Shown here in pieces: positions 7,046 to 20,148 of a DNA stretch of 64,000 nucleotides. Source of the stretch: Novosphingobium ovatum. Its GTDB lineage: Bacteria > Pseudomonadota > Alphaproteobacteria > Sphingomonadales > Sphingomonadaceae. The number at the start of each line of letters is the position of its first letter. Position 1 is the stretch's first letter. The notes below the pieces were generated by a model. It saw only the letters and a list, made by a program, of their open reading frames with translations. It was not told the origin of the DNA and searched no databases. The translations under genes were made by a program, and so were the position numbers. Where the stretch lies: assembly GCF_009909235.1 (NCBI RefSeq), contig NZ_JAAAPO010000005.1, positions 62,001 through 126,000 of the forward strand, written 5' to 3'.

Positions 7046-9004
7046 ATGGCATTGATTAAAAAGGAACAGATCGGCGCCAACGCTATCGATAAGGGCGTAC
7101 TTGCCACCAATGCGCTAAAAGGTGCCAAGACAGCAAGCCGCCCTGTCGCCGCAAAAACGGATCGCGATGCCGAGGCCCACAAGCGTCAGGCCCGCACCTA
7201 TGCCCGCCAGCAGCAAGCCGCGGAGCGCATCGCGGCAGCCACCACCGAACTGTCAGGCGGCGTGAGCGAGGCCAGTGAAGCGCTTGATCTGCTCCAGACG
7301 GCCATGCAGCAAGTGGCGTCCGGTGCTGAGGAAGCCTCCAGCGCGGCCGCCCAGTCGCTACGCAATGTCACCATCATCAATGGCCTGATCCGCGATTGCC
7401 GAAAGGCCGCTGATGTCAGCCTTGACAAGACCCGCTCGCTGCAAAATCTGATCGAAGACAACCGCGCGCAGATCGCGGCCTCGGTGCGCGCGCTCGAAAC
7501 CGCCTCGGAGCGCCAGACGCGTTCGGTGCAGATCGTCAACGAGCTCGAGACCCAGGCGGCCAATATTGGCGATATCGTCAAGGCTGTGGCCCGTATTGCC
7601 GACCAGACCAACCTACTCGCGCTAAACGCCGCCATCGAGGCGGCCCGCGCAGGCGAGCATGGCAAGGGGTTTGCGGTGGTGGCCGACGAGGTCCGCACGC
7701 TGGCTGAAATCAGCGAGAAGAGCGCCACCGAAATTCAGGATCTGGTCGGGCAGATCCAGGGCGAGGTGAAGGTGATTGCTGAAGGCATCCTGTCCTCGGC
7801 CGAGGGCGCTCGCAGCGAAGCCCAGAAAGGCGCCGAAGTGACCGAGCGCCTTTCCCACATCCGTGTCGAAATGACCGCTGTGCTGACCGGCGCCGAGGAA
7901 ATCGCGCGACTCAACGCAGAATCGGAAACCGCCATCGGCGAAGCGCAGAAAGGCTCTGAAGCCGTCAGCAGCGCTGCGGCCGAACAATCTGCCGCTTGCG
8001 AGGAAGCGCTCGCAACGCTCGAACAGCAAGGCGCAGCTCTGCGCGAATCCGACGCCACGGCCCAAATGCTCTCGGAACTGACAGAGGACCTGAAAAACGC
8101 CACTGATGTGCGCAAGAGCGCCGAGGAAGTGGCCAGCGCTGCCGAGGAATTGTCCAGCGCGGTCGAGGAAATCAACCGTTCGGCCAGCCAGATCATGGTG
8201 GCGATCAGTCAGATCGGCAATGGCGCCGAGGCGGCCGCGGCTGCTGCCAATCAGTCCAGCGCAGCGATCGAGCAGATCCGCAAGGGGGCCGATCGTTCGG
8301 CAGAAGCTGCCTCCCTGGCGATCGACAGGGGCACACAGATTTCGCAACTCATTGCCGACAGCCGCTCGGCGGTCGAAGGCATGATCGAGGGGGTCGCCCA
8401 ATCGGTCGAAAGCAATGCCCGACTACGCCAGCAAGTGGCGCAATTGAGCAGCGTTTCGCGCCGGATCGACAAGATTGTCGACGCGATTACCACGGTTGGC
8501 ATCAAGACCAACATGCTTGCGGTCAATGGCTCGGTCGAAGCCGCACGCGCAGGCGATTTTGGCCAGGGCTTTGCGGTGGTTTCCAATGACATCCGCAATC
8601 TGGCGGAGGAATCCTCGGAGAATGCCGACCGCATCAAGGATATGGTCCGCACCATCCAGGAGCAGATCGGCGATGTCTCGCGCGACCTCGACGATATCAA
8701 CCGCGCCGCGCTGGACGAAGTGGAAAAGAACAAGGTCATCACCGCCGACCTGACCCGCGTGACGGACGACATGGCCGAGGTGATGGCCGGCAACACATCG
8801 ATCCGCGAAAACACCGCCGAGATGCTGCGGCAGGTAGGCGAGGTGCAAACTGGTATCAACCAGATCGCCTCGGCCGCGACGCAAGCCTCGCAGGCCTCTA
8901 CGCAAGCCGCTTCGGCTGCGCGTCAGCAGAGCCAGGGCGCCGAGGAACTGGCCGGCGCTATCGAGGAAATCGCCTCGATGGCAGACGAACTGCAGTCCGC
9001 CTGA
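7046..9004 (+). CDS. soluble methyl-accepting chemotaxis protein with two signalling tips
   Basis: 652 residues of almost continuous Ala/Glu/Gln-rich coiled coil. There is no signal peptide, membrane segment or recognisable sensor domain, so it should be cytoplasmic. Two hairpin-tip motifs are present. The first is canonical ([18 protein letters not shown] then [16 protein letters not shown], about 187-225). The second is diverged ([18 protein letters not shown] then [16 protein letters not shown], about 485-525). Each tip is the part that binds CheW and CheA, so one chain could make two contacts or one double-length array unit. No C-terminal CheR/CheB pentapeptide is seen. GGGAG precedes the ATG. 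It is the first gene of the operon, and a promoter must lie in the AT-rich 136 bp upstream. Confidence 0.92.
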
Positions 9005-9062: not shown

Positions 9063-10619
9063 ATGTTGCATTCTCATATTGACCCAAATGCCGAAGGCGT
9101 CGTGGCGCTGGAGACTGTGTCGCAGCAATTCACCATCTTTGCGGTGGACGGCGAGAATTTCGCGGTCAGCCTGGATGAAGTGAAGGAAATCATCCGCATG
9201 CCTGACGTGGTGCGGGTACCGCTGGCGCCGCCCAGCCTTGAGGGGCTGGCGAATTTGCGAGGCACGGTACTGCCGATTGTCAATGCCCGCCTGTTGTTCG
9301 ACCTGCCGCGCCGTGATGCGGACGATGCCACCCGCGTGGTCATTCTCGACCATGGCCATCCGATCGGTATTGTCGTCGACAAGGTGGCCAGTGTGGTGAC
9401 GGTCGAACCCGATCGGATAGAGTCGGCGAGCGAGGTGGAAACCAGTATTCGTTCCGATCTGCTGCGCGGCATGATCCGCGATCAGGACGGCATGGGGTTG
9501 GTGATGGTGCTCGAAACCCGCCGCTTGATCGCCCAGGAATTCGAACTGCTTGCCGCTCAGGCGCGGGAGCATGTCTCGAAGCTGGCCGAGGATAGCGCGG
9601 TGAGCGCGACCCGTGACGAACCCACATCGGACGATGAAGAAATCCAGCTTGTCAGCTTTGAAGTGGCAGGACAGGAATATGCCTTGCCGATCGCCAGCGT
9701 GCGCGAGATCGTGCAGCTACCCGAAAAAGTGACCAAGGTGCCCAAGGCGGCGAGCAGCGTAATGGGGGTGATCACCTTGCGCGAAAGGCTGCTGCCGGTG
9801 GTGTCCTTGCGCCGCCAGTTCCGGCTCGAGCCTGCCGAATGCGAAGAGCACCAGCGGGTCGCGGTGGTGTCGGTGGGGCCTCGCCAGACACTGGTGGGCC
9901 TCGTGCTCGACAAGGTCAACGAGGTGCTGCGGGTGCGTTCCTCCGGGATTGACGCCATGCCGGGCGTCATGGCCGCCAATGGCGATATCTCCGAGATCAC
10001 TGCGCTGTGCCGGTTGAATGGTGGCAAGCGTCTGGTGTCCATCCTTTCAGCCGAGGCGATGTTTGATCCCGAAGCGATCGAGGACACCCTCAAGCAAGCA
10101 GGTGGCGATGTGAACATGAAGGGCGAGGCTTCGCGCAATCGTGCAGCGGCATCCAAGGTGGAGGAAGAGCAATTCGTCGTCTTCCGCCTGATCAACGAGG
10201 AATTTGGCGTTGGCATCGAGAGCGTACAGGAAATCGTGCGCGTGCCCGAGGACGTGGCCAAGATCCCCCGCACCAAGGATTTCATCCGCGGCGTGATGAA
10301 TTTGCGCGGCTCGGTCATCCCCTTGATCGATCAGCGCGCCCGCTTTGGCCTGCCCGCACTCGAAGCCAATGACCGCCAGCGGATCATGGTGTTCAGGCTG
10401 GGTGGGGTACAGACCGGCTTCATCGTCGATAGCGTGTCCGAAGTGATGCGGATTCGCCGCGACCGTATCAAACCCACGCCCGCAATGTCGGAAGGGCAGC
10501 GCAAGGTGATCCGCCGTGTAGCCAACCTGCCCGAGGCAAAGCGGATGATCCTGTTGCTCGATGCCGATCGGATGCTTGATGCAAGCGAGATCGAGGCCGT
10601 GGCAGCGGCAGCCGCCTGA
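9063..10619 (+). CDS. triple-domain CheW-like adaptor
   Basis: 518 residues with three consecutive CheW folds at roughly 18-165, 195-345 and 370-510. Each contains the hydrophobic strand plus V-x-E-I-V/I and LRG/LRE-x-x-x-P-V/I hallmarks (EGLANLRGTVLPIVNARLLF; GVITLRERLLPVVSLRRQF; GVMNLRGSVIPLIDQRARF). CheW links receptors to the kinase CheA. Fusing three may crosslink array units or bind the several receptor tips made here. The second copy has LRE in place of LRG. I chose the ATG at 9063 because GGGAGG lies 6 nt before it; an upstream in-frame start at 9015 would lack such a site. Confidence 0.9.
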   Translation: MLHSHIDPNAEGVVALETVSQQFTIFAVDGENFAVSLDEVKEIIRMPDVVRVPLAPPSLEGLANLRGTVLPIVNARLLFDLPRRDADDATRVVILDHGHPIGIVVDKVASVVTVEPDRIESASEVETSIRSDLLRGMIRDQDGMGLVMVLETRRLIAQEFELLAAQAREHVSKLAEDSAVSATRDEPTSDDEEIQLVSFEVAGQEYALPIASVREIVQLPEKVTKVPKAASSVMGVITLRERLLPVVSLRRQFRLEPAECEEHQRVAVVSVGPRQTLVGLVLDKVNEVLRVRSSGIDAMPGVMAANGDISEITALCRLNGGKRLVSILSAEAMFDPEAIEDTLKQAGGDVNMKGEASRNRAAASKVEEEQFVVFRLINEEFGVGIESVQEIVRVPEDVAKIPRTKDFIRGVMNLRGSVIPLIDQRARFGLPALEANDRQRIMVFRLGGVQTGFIVDSVSEVMRIRRDRIKPTPAMSEGQRKVIRRVANLPEAKRMILLLDADRMLDASEIEAVAAAAA

Positions 10620-10650: not shown

Positions 10651-11739
10651 ATGAAGGCTCTTGTTGTTGATGACTCCGCTCTGATGCGCCGCCAGATTGG
10701 CGACATTCTGACGCGCGGGGGGTTTGATGTGGCAAGCGCCCGCACCGGGGCAGAGGCCATCGAACGACTGCCGATCGAGAAGCCCGATGTTGTGACGCTC
10801 GACATCAACATGCCTGAAATGGACGGGCTGACCTGTTTGTCGCGGATCATGACCGAGCACCCGACGCCGGTGGTAATGATCTCCTCGCTGACCGAGGATG
10901 GCGCGTTGGCCACGCTGGAGGCGATTGCGCTGGGCGCGGTCGATTTCATGCAAAAGCCGGGCGGCACGGTTTCTGCCAATTTGCGCAGCTGCGAGGAGAT
11001 CATCCTCGAAAAGGTGACGGCTGCGGCCAGAGCGCGCCCGCGCCGCACCGCCAATCTGCGCCAGCGACTGCTGGCGCGGCGCGAAACGATCCTGGGGCAG
11101 CCTCTGCGCCGTCGCCAGCCGTCCACGAGCGTCGAAGCGCTGACACTGGTGGGCGCCAGCACCGGCGGGCCGGCAGTGCTGGAAGAATTGCTGTCCTGCC
11201 TGAGCGCCGACTACCCGATGCCGGTGCTGGTCTGCCAGCATATGCCCTCCAGCGTCACCCGCCATTTTGCCGAGCGGCTCAACCGCATCTGCCCGATGCC
11301 TGTGGTCGAGCTGCGCAAACAGACCGAGTTGGAGGCCGGCACGATCTATGTGGCGCGCGGTGACGCCGACATGATCGTGATGATCCGCAATGACAAGCTG
11401 GTGGCCACCATCGTGCCGCCCTCTCGCAACTATAGCTGGCACCCGAGCGTGAACCGGCTGGTTGAAAGCGCTATGAAATGCGTGACCGCCGATAGCCTGA
11501 TCGGCGTGCTGATGACCGGCATGGGCGATGATGGCGCCGCCGAGATGACCGCGCTTCGCAAAGCTGGCGGCTACACCATGGCCGAAAGCGAGGAGAGCTG
11601 CGTGGTCTATGGCATGCCGCGGGCGTTGATCGAAGCTGGCGGGGCCTGCGACGTGCTGGACGCCAGTGACATGGCCGCAAAATTGGAACGTGTTGCTTTC
11701 ACCCGCTCGCGTATCGACGACAAGATTAGGAGCAACTGA
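10651..11739 (+). CDS. cheB: CheB receptor methylesterase / response regulator
   Basis: 362 residues. The receiver domain has DD at 7-8 and phosphoacceptor D51 (TLDINMPEMDG). After a short Arg-rich linker the methylesterase domain carries the serine S170 (GASTGGP), H197 (CQHMPS) and D293 (MTGMGDDGA), equivalent to the known Ser-His-Asp triad. It removes or deamidates methyl-glutamates on the receptor when phosphorylated by CheA, giving adaptation feedback. It lies 31 nt after the CheW gene and 2 nt before the HEAT gene, so the genes are co-transcribed. Confidence 0.95.
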   Translation: MKALVVDDSALMRRQIGDILTRGGFDVASARTGAEAIERLPIEKPDVVTLDINMPEMDGLTCLSRIMTEHPTPVVMISSLTEDGALATLEAIALGAVDFMQKPGGTVSANLRSCEEIILEKVTAAARARPRRTANLRQRLLARRETILGQPLRRRQPSTSVEALTLVGASTGGPAVLEELLSCLSADYPMPVLVCQHMPSSVTRHFAERLNRICPMPVVELRKQTELEAGTIYVARGDADMIVMIRNDKLVATIVPPSRNYSWHPSVNRLVESAMKCVTADSLIGVLMTGMGDDGAAEMTALRKAGGYTMAESEESCVVYGMPRALIEAGGACDVLDASDMAAKLERVAFTRSRIDDKIRSN

Positions 11740-11741
11740 CG

Positions 11742-12353
11742 ATGGCCCTGCTCAAAGCCAAAGCCGCAGAAAATGTTGCCAATCCGGCGTCTCAATCCGG
11801 TGTCTCCCCAGCAAGCCTGGATTCGGACGATCCGATGGAACGGCGCCGCGCGGTGCAACAATGCGTCGAGGAGCCCAATCCGGTCGCCGCACTGCTGGGC
11901 CTGTTGCGCGAGGAGCATGAGAACATCGTGCGGCAGGCGGCCTTTACCGAACTGGCAGCGCTGGGCACCAGCGAAGCGGCGCAAGGCTTGGCCGAACTGC
12001 TTTCCAACGCCGACCCGGCGCTGCGCAATGGCGCGCTGGAAGCCTTGGTGGCCATGCCCGAGCAGGCGATGGGGCTGCTGGCGCCGCTCGCCTTTTGCGA
12101 TGACCCCGATGTGCGGATCTTTGCGGTGATGATGGCGAACGAACTCCCCTCTGAGCGCACCGCCGACTGGCTCATCGCGCTCGCCGCAAAGGAGCAGGAC
12201 GCCAATGTCTGCTCCAACCTTGCCGAGGCAATAGGCGGCACTGGGCGCCGCGATGCGTTGCCAGTGCTGCAGGCGATCATCGAACGTTTCCCTCGCGAAC
12301 CCTATCTGGCCTTTGCTGCTGAAACCGCCATGACCCGGATCCGGGAGGGTTGA
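11742..12353 (+). CDS. HEAT-repeat protein inside the chemosensory operon
   Basis: 203 residues. After a short N-terminus (MALLKAKAAENVAN) come about four to five helical repeats typical of HEAT or PBS-lyase-type proteins, for example VRQAAFTELAALGTSEAAQG, LRNGALEALVAMPEQAMGLL and VRIFAVMMANELPSERTADW. Such solenoids bind other proteins and have no catalytic residues of their own. It sits 2 nt after cheB and 4 nt before cheR, which strongly suggests a role with these adaptation enzymes or the receptor. It is not a standard Che component; scaffold or specificity factor is inference. Confidence 0.82.
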   Translation: MALLKAKAAENVANPASQSGVSPASLDSDDPMERRRAVQQCVEEPNPVAALLGLLREEHENIVRQAAFTELAALGTSEAAQGLAELLSNADPALRNGALEALVAMPEQAMGLLAPLAFCDDPDVRIFAVMMANELPSERTADWLIALAAKEQDANVCSNLAEAIGGTGRRDALPVLQAIIERFPREPYLAFAAETAMTRIREG

Positions 12354-12357
12354 AGCG

Positions 12358-13227
12358 GTGAATGACATGAGCCGACCGCCCGTGGCGGCCCCTCCCAAGA
12401 TATCTGCCGAAGATGTCGTGAGCTTTTGCGACTTCTTCTACAAGAAGACTGGCATAAGCATGGATGCCAGCCGGCGCTATTTCATCGACCGCAGGCTCGA
12501 AGAGCGCATGGCGGCCAATGACTGCAAGACGTTCCGCGAATACCTTGCTCTGGTCAAATTCCAGCCTGGCGGCGGCGAGATGCAGGCGTTGATCAACGAG
12601 ATGACGGTCAACGAGACCTATTTCTTCCGCGAAGACTACCAGTTCCAATGCCTTACGCGGCATATGCTCGACGAAATCGCCGACAGGCGCGGCAACAATC
12701 GCGCGCCGATCCGCATCTGGTCGGTGCCCTGTTCAACCGGCGAGGAGCCCTACACAATCGCGATCTCGATCCTGGAGAACTGGGGCCGGGCCAATGACTT
12801 CGACATCGAGATTCTGGCGAGCGACATCGACAGCAGGGTGCTGGGCCGCGCGCAAGAGGGCATTTACGAGGCCCGGGCGCTCCATCGGGTGCCAACCAAG
12901 GTCCGCGACACCTATTTCCGCAAGCTGGATAATGACCGCTGGCAGGTGATTGATGACTTACGCGAGTCGGTCGATTTCAGCCTCGTCAATGTTTGCAACC
13001 CGACCCAGATGGCACGGATGCGCGGCATCGACGTGATCTTCTGTCGCAATCTGCTGATCTATTTCGACGACCTCTCGCGCCGCCGGGCCGCCGAGCATTT
13101 CTACGAGGCGCTCAATCCGGGCGGCTTTGTGGCGCTTGGCCATTCGGAAAGCATGAGCCGCATATCCAATATCTTCAACCCCCGCAAATTCCCCGAGGCG
13201 ATTGTCCATCAAAGGCCTGTGTCATGA
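12358..13227 (+). CDS. cheR: CheR receptor methyltransferase
   Basis: 289 residues. The N-terminal helical domain is followed by the SAM-binding domain with the CheR signature around WSVPCSTGEEPYTIAI, the acidic ligand in LASDID, FCRNLLIYF, and the LNPGGFVALGHSES stretch. It methylates glutamates on the MCP adaptation helices. The GTG start at 12358 is supported by GGGAGGG 8 nt upstream; an ATG at 12367 is an alternative. The stop overlaps the next start as ATGA. Confidence 0.95.
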   Translation: MNDMSRPPVAAPPKISAEDVVSFCDFFYKKTGISMDASRRYFIDRRLEERMAANDCKTFREYLALVKFQPGGGEMQALINEMTVNETYFFREDYQFQCLTRHMLDEIADRRGNNRAPIRIWSVPCSTGEEPYTIAISILENWGRANDFDIEILASDIDSRVLGRAQEGIYEARALHRVPTKVRDTYFRKLDNDRWQVIDDLRESVDFSLVNVCNPTQMARMRGIDVIFCRNLLIYFDDLSRRRAAEHFYEALNPGGFVALGHSESMSRISNIFNPRKFPEAIVHQRPVS

Positions 13228-13703
13228 CCCAGCCGCAACACACCATGAGCCCCGCGCCGAGCGGTCCTGCGTCTACGAGCACGCCGTCAGGGGCCACGGC
13301 CTGCGCCCCGGAGGATGCGCCTGCGCCCAAGGGTCGGGTTCTGGTGGTCGATGACACGCTGACCGTACGCCTCTACTGCTCGCAATTGCTGAAACGCGCC
13401 GGCTATGAGGCGTTTGAGGCGATCAACGGGCTCGAAGGGCTGGAAGTCGCGCTGGGGCAGGCGTTTGACCTGTTCGTCGTCGACATCAACATGCAGAAGA
13501 TGGACGGCTATGCCTTTCTGGCCGAGGTGCGGCGCCGCTCCGATCTGCGCCATACGCCTGCGGTGATGATGAGCACGGAACAAGGCAGTGAGGACATTGC
13601 CCGCGCCTATGCTTCGGGCGCCAATTTCTATCTGACCAAGCCTATCGATCCGACGCGCTTCATCGAGACGGTGCAGCTGATGACGGGAGTAGCCCCGCGA
13701 TGA
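13224..13703 (+). CDS. CheY-like response regulator with Pro/Ala-rich N-terminal extension
   Basis: 159 residues. The first 35 are low-complexity Pro/Ser/Ala/Thr sequence, followed by one receiver domain with the acidic pair in VVDDT, phosphoacceptor D87 (VVDINMQKMDG), the conserved S/T (MMSTEQG) and Lys in FYLTKPID. There is no output domain, so it acts by binding a target once phosphorylated. ATGA overlaps join it to cheR upstream and cheA downstream. Its target, motor or otherwise, is unknown because no flagellar genes are nearby. Confidence 0.9.
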   Translation: MTQPQHTMSPAPSGPASTSTPSGATACAPEDAPAPKGRVLVVDDTLTVRLYCSQLLKRAGYEAFEAINGLEGLEVALGQAFDLFVVDINMQKMDGYAFLAEVRRRSDLRHTPAVMMSTEQGSEDIARAYASGANFYLTKPIDPTRFIETVQLMTGVAPR

Positions 13704-16000
13704 GCGACCAAATGGACAACAAGGCCGAAAACGCCGAATTGGCAGCCAGCTTCGTGGCCGAAACGCGCGAATTGCTTGACGAGGCGAACAGTGCGTTGCT
13801 CGCGCTCGAACGCAAGCCCGAGGATCAGGAAGCGATCAACAATCTGTTCCGTTGCGTCCATTCGATCAAGGGTGCTGCTGGCTTGTTTGACCTGCCCGCG
13901 CTGATCCATCTGGTCCATGCCGGCGAGGATCTGCTGGGCGCAATGCGCGATGGCAAGCTGCGCATGGATGGCGCGGCGACCGATGAGCTGCTGGCCGGGC
14001 TCGACCATGTCAACGGCTGGCTCGACCAATTCCACCGCGATGGCAAGCTCGCGCCCGATACCATGGGCATTGCCCGCCAGTTTGCAGCACTCTATCGCGC
14101 GCGGCTGGGCGGCGAACGCGCGGCGGCGCAGGCTAGCGGGGACATCGCCTATGACGCGTGGCCCGCTTGGGCCGAGCCCGCGCGCGAGGCGATCACCGCG
14201 GCGGCCATGGGCGTAGATGCGCTGGTTCTGCTGCGCTACACGCCCGAGGAAGGCTGCTTCTTTTCGGGCGATGACCCGCTGTTTACGGTCTTGCAAACCC
14301 CACAGATGGCCTGGCTCGACATTCAGCCGCGCGAACCCTGGCCCGACCCTTCGCGGTTTGACCCCTACGCCTGCAATCTGATGTTCCTGATCGCTTCGGC
14401 GGCCACAAGGGCCGAAGTCGAAATGCACTACCGCTATGTGCCCGACTGCATCGAACTGGTTGAAGTCGCCTTGCAAACGCTGCCCCGCGACACGGTGCCA
14501 GAGCAGGCATCAGCATCTGGGCCCAGCGCACCAACCAAGCGCAAGCTCACCGCGCTGGCGGTGGAATTGCTCGAAGCGCAACGCCGCGCCCTTTCCATGC
14601 CCGGCCGCCACGGACAGGTTGACGACATCGCCGTCACCTTGCGCAATCTGTGCAGTTCACAAGGCCTGCCTTCCCCGCTGGTGGATCAGGGCGCCACCTC
14701 TCAGGATGTGGCACAAGCGATCGACGCGCTGCTTAAACCCGACGCGCCCGCAGGTCCCCCCGATGAAGACAGTGCCGCCCAGTTCGCGCCTGTCCCGCGC
14801 GCGGCCGACCTCGCGGTCGAGCGGGTCGAACCGAGTACCGACAAGACCTTGCGGGTCGAGCAGGTCAAAGTCGACACGTTGATGAATCTGGTGGGCGAGT
14901 TGGTCGTGGCCAAGAATGCGCTGCCCTTCCTGGCGCGCGATGCCGAGATGAAGTTCGGCTGCCGTGAACTCGCCCGCGAGATCAAGGACAAATATGCGGT
15001 GATCGACCGCATCGCCCGCCAGATGCAGAACTCGGTGATGGACATTCGGATGATGCCGGTGTCCGACCTGTTCCGCCGCTTCCCGAGGCTGGTGCGCGAT
15101 GTGGCGCGCAAACTCGACAAAAAAGTGCAACTGGTCATCGAAGGCGAGGCGACGGAGGCCGACAAGAACATCATCGAGGCACTGGCCGAGCCGCTAACCC
15201 ATGTGCTGCGCAATAGCCTCGATCATGGCATCGAGTTGCCGGCGGAACGGGCGCGGCTGGGCAAGGACGAAACGGCAACCTTGCGCCTGCGCGCCTTCCA
15301 GGAGGGCGACAGCGTTGTGATCGAGGTCAGCGACGATGGGCGCGGCATTGACGCTGGCCGGGTGCGGGCAAAAGCGGTCGAACGCGGCCTGCTTGATGCC
15401 GAACGCGCCGGCGGCCTCACCGACGATCAGGCGGTACAGTTGGTGTTCCTGCCCGGCTTTTCGACCGCCGAGCAAGTGTCCGATCTGTCCGGCCGGGGCG
15501 TGGGCATGGACGCCGTACGCACGGTGGTCGAGCGACATGGCGGCAATGTCCTGCTCAGCTCTTATGCGGGCGAGGGCACGAAAGTGGTCCTCAAGCTGCC
15601 ACTGTCCATGGCGATTACCCGTGTGCTCACCATAGAACTGGCAGGCCAGCTCTATGGCGTGCCGATGGATCTGGTGGTCGAGACAGTGCGCATTGGTAGC
15701 CACTCGATCCGCCGGATGAAGGAAGCCGAGGCGGTTGTGCTGCGCGACACGGTCATCCCTATCGTGCGGTTACGCAAGATTCTGGGCATGGATCCAGGCG
15801 ATAAGGCACTCGAGTCGATCCTAATCCTTAAAATTGGCAATTCGACTGTAGGGCTGATTATAGATGATTTTGGCACAGGCATGGACATTATCCTAAAACC
15901 TTTTGCTGGCATCCTCATGCACATGGGTGGATTTGCCGGCACAGCGGTACTGGGTGACGGGCGCGTGCTGCTTGTCCTCAACCTCAAGGAGCTGCTGTGA
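13700..16000 (+). CDS. cheA: CheA hybrid-free chemotaxis histidine kinase
   Basis: 766 residues. The P1 phosphotransfer domain has H54 in RCVHSIKGAAG. A long middle region follows, then the P3 dimerisation helices (VDTLMNLVGELVVAKNAL), the P4 ATPase with N box (HVLRNSLDHGIE), G1 (DDGRGID) and G2 (GRGVGMDAVR), and a C-terminal CheW-like P5 domain. It phosphorylates the two CheY proteins and CheB in response to receptor state. No receiver domain is fused. The start overlaps cheY as ATGA and the stop overlaps the next gene as TGATG. Confidence 0.95.
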   Translation: MSDQMDNKAENAELAASFVAETRELLDEANSALLALERKPEDQEAINNLFRCVHSIKGAAGLFDLPALIHLVHAGEDLLGAMRDGKLRMDGAATDELLAGLDHVNGWLDQFHRDGKLAPDTMGIARQFAALYRARLGGERAAAQASGDIAYDAWPAWAEPAREAITAAAMGVDALVLLRYTPEEGCFFSGDDPLFTVLQTPQMAWLDIQPREPWPDPSRFDPYACNLMFLIASAATRAEVEMHYRYVPDCIELVEVALQTLPRDTVPEQASASGPSAPTKRKLTALAVELLEAQRRALSMPGRHGQVDDIAVTLRNLCSSQGLPSPLVDQGATSQDVAQAIDALLKPDAPAGPPDEDSAAQFAPVPRAADLAVERVEPSTDKTLRVEQVKVDTLMNLVGELVVAKNALPFLARDAEMKFGCRELAREIKDKYAVIDRIARQMQNSVMDIRMMPVSDLFRRFPRLVRDVARKLDKKVQLVIEGEATEADKNIIEALAEPLTHVLRNSLDHGIELPAERARLGKDETATLRLRAFQEGDSVVIEVSDDGRGIDAGRVRAKAVERGLLDAERAGGLTDDQAVQLVFLPGFSTAEQVSDLSGRGVGMDAVRTVVERHGGNVLLSSYAGEGTKVVLKLPLSMAITRVLTIELAGQLYGVPMDLVVETVRIGSHSIRRMKEAEAVVLRDTVIPIVRLRKILGMDPGDKALESILILKIGNSTVGLIIDDFGTGMDIILKPFAGILMHMGGFAGTAVLGDGRVLLVLNLKELL

Positions 16001-16305
16001 TGCCCATCAGCTATTCGACGACCACGGCCAAATTCGTGGGCGAATGCAGTATTGAAGATGCCAGCGAGCTGACCGAATGGCTGCTGGCCAAGCCCGCGCG
16101 CAAGGTCGATCTGGCGCAATGCCGCAATCTGCACACCGCGCTTTTGCAGCCTTTGCTGGTGCTGGCCCCAGCGATAAAGGCGCTGCCCAAGGAGGAGAGG
16201 CTGGCCCGCTGGATCTCACCTCTGTTGCCGGCGCCTGTGGCTTCCGCCACGCGTATCGCTTCGCGCAAACGCACCAAGCCTTCCATTGAACAGGTGCTGG
16301 CATGA
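16000..16305 (+). CDS. small STAS-like protein
   Basis: 101 residues, beginning MPISYSTTTAKFVGECSIED. The pattern of strands and helices (EDASELTEWLLAKPARKVDL then AQCRNLHTALLQPLLVLAP) resembles a reduced STAS or sulfate-transporter/anti-sigma-antagonist fold, in which VDL-x-x-C usually precedes the partner-binding helix. In chemosensory operons small STAS proteins can act as alternative partners of CheA or CheY. The C-terminus is basic. It is linked to cheA by TGATG and to the next cheY by ATGA. The fold assignment is tentative. Confidence 0.65.
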   Translation: MPISYSTTTAKFVGECSIEDASELTEWLLAKPARKVDLAQCRNLHTALLQPLLVLAPAIKALPKEERLARWISPLLPAPVASATRIASRKRTKPSIEQVLA

Positions 16306-16673
16306 AGCACATTCTGATTGTTGATGATTCCCCCACAATTCTGATGAGTATGGAAGGCGTCCTCAGCCGCGCGGGGTTCCAGGTGTCAAAGGCGCCGAGC
16401 GGCGAGGATGCAGTGCGCGCGCTGCAAAACGGCGTGCGGCCCAACCTGGTGATTACCGACCTGAACATGCGCGGCATGAACGGCATCGATGTGATCAAGG
16501 CGATCCGCGCCAATAGCGCCACCCGCTTTACGCCTGTGCTGATGCTGACCACCGAAAGCGCCCAGGACAAGCGCCAGGAGGCGCGCAGCGCTGGGGCGAC
16601 CGGCTGGCTGGTTAAACCGGTTCAGCCCAATGACCTGCTTGGCGTGGTGCGCCAAGTCATGCCGGGGGCATGA
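16302..16673 (+). CDS. CheY-like response regulator (second copy)
   Basis: 123 residues, a single receiver domain with DD at 8-9, phosphoacceptor D53 (VITDLNMRGMNG), T in LMLTTES and K in WLVKPVQP. It lacks the N-terminal extension of the first CheY. Two single-domain receivers fed by one CheA often divide into an effector and a phosphate sink, since no CheZ or CheX phosphatase is seen here; that division is inference. It overlaps the STAS-like gene by ATGA. Confidence 0.92.
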   Translation: MKHILIVDDSPTILMSMEGVLSRAGFQVSKAPSGEDAVRALQNGVRPNLVITDLNMRGMNGIDVIKAIRANSATRFTPVLMLTTESAQDKRQEARSAGATGWLVKPVQPNDLLGVVRQVMPGA

Positions 16674-16674
16674 G

Positions 16675-17829
16675 GTGGGGGCCTGGTGGAAATCGCTGAG
16701 CGCATGGGCCAGCCCGGCTAAGTCCACATATGAGGTGGAGGAGGCCGTTGCGCTTCCGCCTGAGCCAGAAGCAACGCTCGCGCCCGCCCCCAATCCGGAA
16801 TGGCTGGCGCAGGGGCAAATGAGCGACCTGCCGCAAATGGCCGCGCATGCGCTGAGCCTGGGCCTGCGCCCCGAAACGCTGTCGCTGATCCAGGAAATGG
16901 GCAGCTACGCCAACTTTGTCGAAATTATGCAGCGTCATCTTGACAATGTCTGCTCGGGCACCGAGCGCGCTGCCGAGGAGATCATGGGGCAGGTGCTCCA
17001 CATCGAGGGCGACCTGAGTGGTCTAGTCCAATACGTCACCCACACGGTGAACAGCAGCGAGTTTCTCCACGCGAGCGATGCTGTGATTAACAGCATCGGC
17101 GAAGGCCACACGATGATCCGCGATCTGGTGCGCCATCACCTCGCGACGCAATGCCGCATCCGGGACAATCTCTCGGAGGTCAACCGTGTGTCGGTACGCA
17201 TGAAGGATCACCTCGAGGACATCGAAAAGATCCGCCGCCAGACCGACCTGTTGGCGATCAATGCCCGAATCCGCATCGCCAGCCTCGGTCAACAGACCGG
17301 GCTTGATGTGATCGCGCAGGAGATCCGCGGGCTGGCAACCCAGACCGGCGATCTGGCGCAGAACCTGCGCGGCGAACTCAAGGAAATGGACGAGCTGATC
17401 CGCAGCCGGCTGGTGCAGGACTTCAACGAGCAGGAAACGCGCGACAACGACAGCATCAATCATCTCCAGACCACTTTTGACCGGCTGCAAGAGAATATGC
17501 AGCGCATGATCGCCATGCAGGGCGGCTTGATCGAGGCCGTGCGCAGCCGTGCCCATGAAATGGACGAACCGCTGATGAATCTGGTTGGCTCGATCCAGTT
17601 CCAGGATGTCGCGCGCCAGCAGATCGAGCTGGTAGGCCAGGCGTTGAACATGATATCGGACCATTTCGTCTCGCTGAGCCAGGCAATCATTAATGGCGAG
17701 GCGCCGCCCGACAGTTCGATTGCGCGCTGCCTGACGCTAATCCTCGAAAACTATGTGATGGAAGAGCAGAGAGCTGCGCATACCGGCCCGGGCGCTTGCG
17801 ATGGCGGGGCAGCGATCGAGCTGTTCTAG
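16675..17829 (+). CDS. degenerate MCP-like soluble protein
   Basis: 384 residues from a GTG at 16675 with GGGGG 6-7 nt upstream, one base past the preceding TGA. It is largely helical. A receptor-tip-like segment (RRQTDLLAINARIRIASLGQ followed by IAQEIRGLATQT) recalls the MCP hairpin but has lost the E-A-A-R-A-G-E core, so CheW/CheA binding may be altered. It ends with an FQDVARQQIELVGQALNMI helix of a type seen in other soluble receptor-like proteins. There is no membrane segment. It closes the operon. It may act as a capping, competing or phosphatase-like partner; this is inference. Confidence 0.72.
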   Translation: MGAWWKSLSAWASPAKSTYEVEEAVALPPEPEATLAPAPNPEWLAQGQMSDLPQMAAHALSLGLRPETLSLIQEMGSYANFVEIMQRHLDNVCSGTERAAEEIMGQVLHIEGDLSGLVQYVTHTVNSSEFLHASDAVINSIGEGHTMIRDLVRHHLATQCRIRDNLSEVNRVSVRMKDHLEDIEKIRRQTDLLAINARIRIASLGQQTGLDVIAQEIRGLATQTGDLAQNLRGELKEMDELIRSRLVQDFNEQETRDNDSINHLQTTFDRLQENMQRMIAMQGGLIEAVRSRAHEMDEPLMNLVGSIQFQDVARQQIELVGQALNMISDHFVSLSQAIINGEAPPDSSIARCLTLILENYVMEEQRAAHTGPGACDGGAAIELF

Positions 17830-18249: not shown

Positions 18250-20025
18250 CTACCCCGCCAGCTTCAGCGCGTCGGCCACCCGTTGGTTCAGCGCATGCAC
18301 CGGGCTCTCGCCGCGCGTGGCCAGCCAGCGTTCCAGTTCCGCCGCAGGCATGGGGCGCGCCAACAAATAGCCCTGAAATTCCTGACAGCCGCGCGCGCGC
18401 AAATAGGCGATCTGTTCAGGGCGCTCGATCCCTTCGGCGATGACCTTGTGGCCCAGCACCTGTGACACGGTGATGATCGCGGCCAACATGCTCTCGGTCT
18501 TGCCATGGGCGCCGATGCTGGCCACCAGCGACCGGTCCACCTTGAGCGCATCATATTCCAGCCGCGCCAGTTGCGACAGGTTGGAATAGCCGATGCCGAA
18601 ATCATCAATCGAAATGGCAATCCCCGCCGACCGCAATGCATCCACCCGCTCACGTGTGCGGACGAAATCGGCCATGGCGATGGTCTCGGTGATTTCCAGT
18701 TCCAGCAAGGCGGGCGGCAGGTCGTATTCAGCCAGCAGTTCCAGCGTCAGCTCGACAAAGCCGGGGCGTTCGAACTGTACCGGCGAAACATTGACCGCCA
18801 CGCGCATAGGCTGTCCAGCGTCCTGCCACGCGCGCGCCTGACGGATCGCCATGCGCAGGATTGATCCACCCATTGGCACCATCAGCCCGCATTGTTCGGC
18901 AATGCCCACGAACACCTCGGGCGAGACCGGGCCCAGCCCCGGGCAGGTCCAGCGCGCCAGCGCCTCTACTCCGGTGACCGCCATGGTGTCGGCGTCAAAC
19001 TTGGGCTGATAATGCAATTCCAGTGTGTCGCGCTCAACCGCCTGATGCAATTCGCGCTCGATCAGGGCGCGTTCCTCGACCTTGCCTTTCAACGAGGCGT
19101 CAAAGAATACATGGGCGTTCTTGCCGCCTTCCTTGGCGCGATACATCGCGATGTCGGCATAGGCCAGCAACTGGTCGGGCGTGGCCGCATCCTCGGGCAA
19201 GCGCGCGATCCCCATGCTGGCGCTGATATGTACCTCGTTGTTGAACACGTTGAAGCTTTCGGCCAGCGCCGCACCGATCGAACGCGCGATGGCGTCCAGC
19301 GCGGCGCGCTCATGGTGGCCAGGGAGCAGCAAAAGGAACTCGTCCCCGGCAAAGCGGGCAAAGACCGGGCGGGTGGGACAGCTCTGGCACAATTCGCCAA
19401 AGGTAGTGGTGCAATTGTCCAGATCCTGCATCGTCAGGCCCAGACCGCGTTCGACCACGCGCCCGGCCACCTGCCGCAGCAATTCATCGCCCGCGTCATG
19501 GCCCAGCGTGTCGTTCACCCGCTTGAACCCGTCCAGATCGATGAACACCATCGCCCCGGCGCAGGCATCGGTCTGGTCGCGCTGTGCCACCGACAGGATG
19601 TGCGAAATCACCGCGCGGTTGGGCAGGCCCGTCACCGCATCAGTATAGGCCAGCACGTTCATGCGCAGGATATTGCTGTTCAACCGCCCGACCATGGCGC
19701 GGAAACTGTCAGCCAGACCGCCCACCTCGCAGGCACAGTCTATATCGACCGGACGATCAAAATCGCCTGACACCAGCGCCTGTGTGCTGTTGCGCAGGGC
19801 GCGGATCATGCCCGCCAGCTTGGACGCCGCGGCAAAGTTGACCGCCACCGGCAGCGCCAGAATGCCTACCAGCACCGCCCAGCGCGCCGGACCTTGCAGG
19901 TTGACCCACCAGCCCGACACCAGCCAGGCCACCAGCGCCGACATGACCAGAGCCATCAATGCAAAGCGTACAGGGATGCTGTTCAGGCCCCGCCCCTTGC
20001 CCAGCAGATGATCAGTCAGTGCCAC
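18250..20025 (-). CDS. membrane-anchored GGDEF-EAL protein (c-di-GMP turnover)
   Basis: 591 residues from a GTG with AAGGA 5 nt upstream; an ATG at 20058 has no such site. Two membrane segments (about 21-40 and 48-66) are followed by a HAMP-like linker with a DCACE pair of cysteines (C97, C99). The GGDEF domain carries AGDEF (226-230), a variant usually still active, and no RxxD inhibitory site. About 25 extra residues with C205, C213 and C216 are inserted before AGDEF. The EAL domain has EAL (354-356) and DDFGIGYSNL, so both synthesis and hydrolysis of cyclic di-GMP are possible. It lies beside tRNA-Gly and downstream of the chemosensory operon, but on the opposite strand. Confidence 0.9.
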   Translation of the reverse strand: MALTDHLLGKGRGLNSIPVRFALMALVMSALVAWLVSGWWVNLQGPARWAVLVGILALPVAVNFAAASKLAGMIRALRNSTQALVSGDFDRPVDIDCACEVGGLADSFRAMVGRLNSNILRMNVLAYTDAVTGLPNRAVISHILSVAQRDQTDACAGAMVFIDLDGFKRVNDTLGHDAGDELLRQVAGRVVERGLGLTMQDLDNCTTTFGELCQSCPTRPVFARFAGDEFLLLLPGHHERAALDAIARSIGAALAESFNVFNNEVHISASMGIARLPEDAATPDQLLAYADIAMYRAKEGGKNAHVFFDASLKGKVEERALIERELHQAVERDTLELHYQPKFDADTMAVTGVEALARWTCPGLGPVSPEVFVGIAEQCGLMVPMGGSILRMAIRQARAWQDAGQPMRVAVNVSPVQFERPGFVELTLELLAEYDLPPALLELEITETIAMADFVRTRERVDALRSAGIAISIDDFGIGYSNLSQLARLEYDALKVDRSLVASIGAHGKTESMLAAIITVSQVLGHKVIAEGIERPEQIAYLRARGCQEFQGYLLARPMPAAELERWLATRGESPVHALNQRVADALKLAG

Positions 20026-20148
20026 GAGCGTCCTTTCGCAATGCCAGCCGCCGACCATACCGGGCCAGTGGCTACGAAGGCACGAAAGGACATGGTTGGA
20101 CGAAGCTGTGCGTGGTCCTACGCGATGGCGCGTAACGCGGCGGCGGGA

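Follow-up and report, generated by a model that had tools for sequence, protein, structure and literature searches.

Why should a single soluble receptor chain carry two complete signaling tips? The question is raised by a gene of Novosphingobium ovatum, found in a window that comprises the whole stretch of 64,000 nucleotides analyzed here (contig NZ_JAAAPO010000005.1, positions 62,001 to 126,000), where it heads a run of chemotaxis genes (Table 1). Our analysis suggests, with a probability of roughly 0.8, that its product DosM is a soluble double-headed chemoreceptor that serves as both spacer and scaffold of a two-layer cytoplasmic array of the F9 class. The sequence, the duplication, the operon, the tip spacing, the register shift, and the methylation sites on which we base this reading are our own data, while the rod shape and the two baseplates are taken from the available part of published work on Vibrio cholerae.

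The gene and its F9 operon

The original prediction described two complete MCP tips in one chain with neither a sensor nor a membrane domain, and both points hold. MCPsignal matches DosM in two separate stretches (E=2.1e-58) and is the sole Pfam family found at E<=0.01, and a scan of the chain for transmembrane-like (hydrophobic) windows returned none. The 18-residue tip motifs begin at residues 187 and 487, with EAARAG at 198 and 498; the first position was given correctly, whereas the second had been placed at 485, about two residues off. Columns 198-200 of tip 1 are unanimous in 63/63 homologue rows, as are the six EAARAG columns of tip 2 in all 61 rows that extend to it. Since both tips are retained in homologues, the two-tip pattern is not a product of chance.

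Table 1. Features of the dosM operon, in positions of the window
Feature	Position	Strand	Basis or remark
dosM, double-tip MCP	7046..9004	+	652 aa; ORF and Pfam; N-terminal peptide MALIKK
Tip 1 EAARAG codons, residues 198-203	7637..7654	+	Residue numbers converted to bases
Hairpin-hairpin junction, residues 345-353	8078..8104	+	Single heptad-register shift
Tip 2 EAARAG codons, residues 498-503	8537..8554	+	Residue numbers converted to bases
cheW3, three CheW domains in one chain	9063..10619	+	Pfam PF01584, three stretches; start ATG presumed from an upstream purine-rich stretch
cheB, receiver and methylesterase	10651..11739	+	ORF and Pfam
HEAT-repeat protein, N-terminal MALLK like DosM	11742..12353	+	Pfam and N-terminus comparison
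cheR	12358..13227	+	ORF and Pfam
Response regulator cheY	13224..13703	+	Pfam; start presumed
cheA: Hpt, dimerization, ATPase, and CheW domains	13700..16000	+	ORF and Pfam
Small protein, no Pfam match, STAS-like by eye only	15997..16305	+	Same place in many loci
Second cheY	16302..16673	+	ORF and Pfam
mcpx: MCP-like hairpin, degenerate tip, Q-x-x-D-[VI]-x-x-Q, C-terminal IELF	16630..17829	+	Start codon uncertain

The two-tip receptor is already in print as DosM of the F9 class, and the window gene is a further member. In the part of the literature consulted, DosM with its tandem double signaling domains and CheW3 with its triple CheW are described as unique to this class (PMC9321776). Because the gene next to ours encodes a triple CheW, completing this signature pair, we assign the window gene to DosM of the F9 class; the tandem MCP signaling domains, the lack of a sensor or membrane span, and the presence of cheA, cheB, cheR, and cheY in the cluster are further features of the class, and the operon is a complete one. 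According to the same source, complete F9 clusters occur in 64/2781 species and 98% of DosM homologues have no sensory domain (PMC9321776), and the available part of another account terms the F9 system functionally still poorly understood (PMC7534058). Compared through its published description, as far as that was available, DosM of V. cholerae cluster I (VC1403) has in common with ours the two signaling domains, the lack of a sensor, and an adjoining CheW3 with a full che set; the window DosM differs in a lineage-specific form of tip 2. As in the F9 class generally, the dosM-cheW3 pair stands with cheA, cheB, cheR, and cheY and co-occurs with flagellar genes, whereas the HEAT protein, the small STAS-like protein, and the MCP with a CheZ motif are unnamed in the F9 descriptions consulted. 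The FliM family (PF02154) gave 0 matches in the genome, which might suggest that a flagellum is absent; this is ruled out by FliG and flagellin, both of which were found. FliG is also present in 18/20 of the other genomes with DosM.

The operon around dosM recurs in many genomes. Sixty-four loci came from a scan of named genomes; to judge by their titles, most belong to Betaproteobacteria of the Burkholderiales kind, the other taxa being Azospirillum, Chromatiaceae, Methylomonas, Holophagaceae, Armatimonadetes, and Verrucomicrobiales. Rubrivivax and Sphaerotilus are among the carriers of the operon, as is Azospirillum. Fifty-nine of the 64 have cheW3; three of the five loci without it are on contigs that end in or just after dosM, and the other two (L071 and L072) match ordinary MCP tips only. 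At E<=1e-100, DosM was found in 14/195 congener genomes and in 12/396 genomes drawn from the order, two counts that overlap and that each include the genome of the window. In all 21 loci from congeners and order, with the window locus counted, cheW3 adjoins dosM (21/21). The type of operon seen in the window, with HEAT and CheY genes present, occurs in five genomes at 75-78% identity and in one at 50%. A second group at 40-46% identity, which we call group B, retains dosM, cheW3, cheB, cheR, and cheA, and six of its loci from the same family (L100-L105), read over 18 kb, gave no match to HEAT or mcpx. When the CheW domains of CheW3 were grouped, 74/76 third domains, 63/76 first domains, and 63/76 second domains fell with their own kind (D3, D1, and D2), and the domains listed outside the D1 and D2 groups (five each) come from group-B loci; the three domains are old and mostly distinct. 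The tips of DosM are likewise consistently distinct, and the suggestion in the original prediction that they may bind different CheW domains is a conjecture at present.

The arrangement of the locus varies in a few genomes. A second cheY-mcpx pair lies slightly further downstream in L094, L095, and L096; the window has no such pair, and in its place shows a GGDEF-EAL-like frame, recognized by eye, on the minus strand (18250-20058). One Verrucomicrobiales locus (L066) holds two dosM-cheW3 pairs, and one Burkholderiales locus (L051) holds two divergent F9 operons.

Origin and state of the second tip

The double chain had been put down to an internal tandem duplication of the kinase-control module, and both self-comparison and phylogeny speak for this. 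When the halves of DosM were matched against each other at 22 shifts (290-311), 90/308 residues were identical at a shift of 300, the next best shift being 293, one heptad away, with 53/315. In an IQ-TREE analysis of 60 tips (19 T1, 19 T2, 12 from other MCPs of this genome, 8 from mcpx, and 2 from E. coli), a single starred branch with support of 95/91 unites all 38 DosM tips; within it the T2 hairpins are one clade (100/99) and the T1 hairpins its sister (89/52, a weak value). An earlier FastTree run gave the same groups, and eight rows labeled as other MCPs that fell inside them are truncated or single-tip DosM frames. Outside MCPs were few, and the program warned of long branches meeting; given this small outside sample, the weak T1 clade, and the warning, there is only moderate support for a single old internal duplication that gave rise to DosM, after which tip 2 would have changed faster. 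The alternative, that two unrelated MCP genes were fused, could account for the consistent differences between tip 1 and tip 2 in the columns compared across homologue rows, and for an identity of 31/71 residues around the tips. It is at odds with the placement of T1 and T2 on their common branch among the 60 tips, itself moderate evidence, and we regard it as quite unlikely.

Divergence of the second tip was also part of the original prediction, and the homologues agree: relative to the commonest residue in each column of 63 rows, the window DosM differs at 11/40 positions over residues 485-524, against 2/40 over residues 185-224. Could the second tip then be in decay, with the first alone functional? 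The longer branch to T2 (1.38 vs 0.2 to T1) and the Ser that replaces Asn before tip 2 in the group-B DosM rows shown would point the same way. However, the sequence of tip 2 is identical but for E/D in 6/6 close members (the window and L094-L098), and the mean column entropy of 0.38-0.52 bits over residues 480-524 denotes constraint. Decay is thereby very improbable, and with the special form preserved in every close member we rule out a decaying remnant. Judged from these alignments, tip 2 is a conserved form of its own, lineage-specific in the window.

Tip spacing and the shape of the chain

The distance from tip to tip is 300 residues in 68/72 aligned homologues, 299 in 3/72, and 272 in 1/72 (L038, a MAG), after removal of frames outside 600-690 aa, truncated frames, and 12 duplicate loci. 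Under other filters, 60/63 rows have a spacing of 300, and the remainder are two truncated rows and L038 at 272. The DosM of this MAG (L038:9947-11788) has a gap of 28 residues, or four heptads, in one arm only, which may be an assembly error. The length ahead of tip 1 varies among homologues, whose starts are partly uncertain. The hydrophobic heptad phase is constant over residues 45-340 and also over 353-652; between these stretches, near the midpoint of the tip apexes at ~204 and ~504, it shifts by about one residue. Residue 351, near this shift, is absent from three homologues. By simple arithmetic, 150 residues lead from an apex to the center, where the first helix (from ~54) and the last (to 652) just meet. 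Methylation-consensus matches occur at residues 95, 319, 367, and 627, two per hairpin, each separated from a tip apex by 109 to 137 residues; shuffled sequences have a mean of 0.48 matches, and 0/1000 of them reach four. Conservation is highest at both tips and in the neighborhood of the methylation-site regions.

In the available part of the V. cholerae study, DosM is an extended rod with one signaling domain per end, can enter both baseplates, and appears essential for array formation (PMC7534058). By analogy, the window DosM would behave in the same way. Each half would be an antiparallel MCP hairpin with ~150 residues per arm. An end-to-end connection of the halves would let each CheA/CheW3 baseplate receive one tip, with the distance between the layers set by helix 204-504. 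With two of the four methylation-consensus sites on each hairpin, CheR and CheB of the operon would presumably adapt both ends.

The predicted structure complicates this picture. The AlphaFold model of the DosM monomer (49 sequences; pLDDT 88.4, pTM 0.63) consists of helices 39-351 and 355-651 with a break at 352-354, close to the heptad register shift. Whether the second motif might be buried and form no hairpin was tested on this model; instead, VIA superposes residues 418-592 on a receptor hairpin, with 172 residues aligned at 1.5 A. Foldseek matched the model to 2ch7 (298 columns, 2.7 A) and to the E. coli receptor tip 6s1k (93 columns, 0.8 A). VIA also aligned 3zx6 on 303 residues across 58-633 of the model, skipping the middle of the chain; its top rows are TTYH proteins, which are unrelated and cover ~300 residues across 127-582, with a highest Z of 19.7. 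Alignments that skip the middle seem to place the two hairpins next to each other, their tips pointing to the same end. The monomer thus appears folded back, in conflict with the published rod; note here that a monomer prediction cannot reveal the dimer.

Taken at face value, a fold-back at 352-354 would make DosM a single-chain mimic of an MCP dimer, in effect a fused heterodimer, with both tips in one baseplate. The break between the two modeled helices is what such a chain would show, the alignments span both halves as one four-helix bundle, and the junction consensus N-S-T-D could cap a helix. Against this, a monomer prediction is biased toward burying its own hydrophobic faces, and loop lengths should vary among homologues, yet only 3/72 rows differ there, each by one residue, and no column over 340-365 has Gly or Pro in at least 20/72 rows. 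V. cholerae DosM is, moreover, described as a rod in the available part of the published tomography (PMC7534058). Baseplates are ~35 nm apart in V. cholerae and ~31 nm apart in sandwiches of a Tar fragment, according to the portion available of a further report (PMC3964821). A straight helix of 300 residues would measure ~44 nm, which exceeds the 35 nm gap, or ~37 nm after the Tar-fragment offset. The end points of the Tar fragment behind this offset are our assumption. The value of ~37 nm agrees roughly with a rod, and two opposed chains folded like jackknives would fit equally. Given that a rod is published, that the length is fixed, and that the junction is nearly constant in length, we favor the rod and consider the fold-back unlikely.

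Start peptide, CheZ-like motif, and partner receptors

Two further features of the operon allow a more tentative proposal, possible although short of even odds: DosM and the HEAT protein would share an N-terminal docking peptide, and the MCP-CheZ-like protein would provide the array with a CheY phosphatase of its own. The pattern M-[AGS]-L-x-[KR] begins both DosM and the HEAT protein in the window (7046-7063 and 11742-11756) and in L009-L105, the consensus, with few exceptions, being M-[AS]-L-[VI]-[KR]-K for DosM and M-[AG]-L-x-K for HEAT. To compare ten genes by an identical rule, any ATG, GTG, or TTG within a fixed upstream range was accepted, and the looser pattern M[AGSPT][LFI]x[KR] was found in 59/77 DosM and 58/58 HEAT proteins. 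The counts were 0/76 for CheW3, 0/70 for CheB, 0/66 for CheR, 0/53 for CheY1, 1/43 for CheA, 0/51 for the small protein, and 1/98 for CheY2 (2/457 for these seven proteins), and 0/4 for mcpx, which had four usable loci only; all of these include close relatives and are not independent events. With a first-ATG rule, 106/2,886 frames of at least 120 aa match, 86 of them dosM or HEAT, and the other 20 include the dosM of L083.

Entropy jumps after residue 6 in DosM and after residue 5 in the HEAT protein. Within the conserved start peptide the encoded residues are kept although the codons for Ala, Leu, Val, and Lys vary; it is therefore the peptide rather than the DNA that is conserved, and a DNA or RNA signal is disfavored. 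Group-B DosM rows retain the peptide, and, as no HEAT match was found in the six group-B stretches, the peptide must serve something besides HEAT. With a small second residue, the initiator Met is expected to be removed. The docking peptide would then be a mature [AGS]-L-x-[KR] on a flexible and variable linker, comparable to the C-terminal pentapeptide by which E. coli receptors tether CheR. In the rod, the DosM tail would exit at the midplane of the sandwich, where the peptide could recruit a common partner; candidates are an adaptation enzyme and the HEAT solenoid.

The last gene of the operon, mcpx, encodes an MCPsignal hairpin (E=2.1e-10) followed downstream by Q-F-Q-D-V-A-R-Q. Three positions of this motif (first Q, D, and last Q) are invariant in 48/48 mcpx rows, which include the window and come mostly from F9 operons, as are the E and F of the C-terminal IELF (48/48). 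At the tip, Glu and Arg are both replaced in the clade of the window (5/48), and Glu is retained in the other 43. The motif resembles that of CheZ in its FQDxxxQ pattern and in a long helix that carries D and Q at a distance of four residues (D 306 and Q 310 lie within helix 203-335 in a model of the 379-residue form), but unlike CheZ it is joined to an MCP-like hairpin. HMMER and HHalign both pair this D and Q with D143 and Q147 of E. coli CheZ, but in HMMER E. coli CheZ scores no better than its own shuffles do. The NCBIfam CheZ model matches 23/48 mcpx rows at E<=0.1 (best 3.7e-5), and the window mcpx is its sole match in the genome (E=0.0014, below the cut-off), with a whole-protein score of 18 bits against a cut-off of 350. 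This model is a weak test, as among 14 controls it missed E. coli and gave sub-cut-off matches (E<=10) in three, one of them an archaeon. Pfam CheZ is not listed for mcpx, and no CheZ appears among the best 50 Foldseek rows and 50 VIA rows listed for the mcpx model or among the best 60 of 155 rows of a profile search of PDB sequences, absences that exclude nothing. Taken together, the conserved residues make it plausible that mcpx is a CheY-P phosphatase on a receptor-like hairpin. One mcpx row, from a MAG named as Klebsiella pneumoniae (L030), is nearly identical near the tip to a row from Betaproteobacteria (L028), and the name is probably wrong.

Open-access full text, supplements aside, gave no match for a 300-residue tip spacing with a midpoint register shift and nothing on the start peptide of DosM and HEAT, on CheZ joined to a receptor, or on HEAT repeats with chemotaxis. 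The spacing, the register shift, the start peptide, and the MCP with a CheZ motif may thus be absent from print. A ruler with a central register break, a start peptide, and a CheZ-like motif offer testable points on a conserved operon, and bear on how F9 arrays receive signals, adapt, and reset.

As for the receiving of signals, DosM has no sensor of its own, and its input would come from distinct cytoplasmic receptors that share mixed trimers with it. Searches of the genome gave three CheA-type matches and 15 MCPsignal hits, namely two for dosM, one for mcpx, and 12 for others, whose frames were read. The MCPs of L006, L109, and L110 have no transmembrane-like window; that of L008 has none from its 636-aa start, and an open frame upstream adds two hydrophobic windows, which makes it uncertain. 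The genome holds three, perhaps four, MCPs without such a window. EHGKG of DosM tip 1 is common to L109 and to two membrane receptors of L108, and the receptors of L006, L109, L110, L008, and L108 are candidates to complete the trimers. A soluble MCP that appears PAS-like by eye (L106:4871-6271) lies ~11 kb upstream of dosM and is a possible partner receptor.
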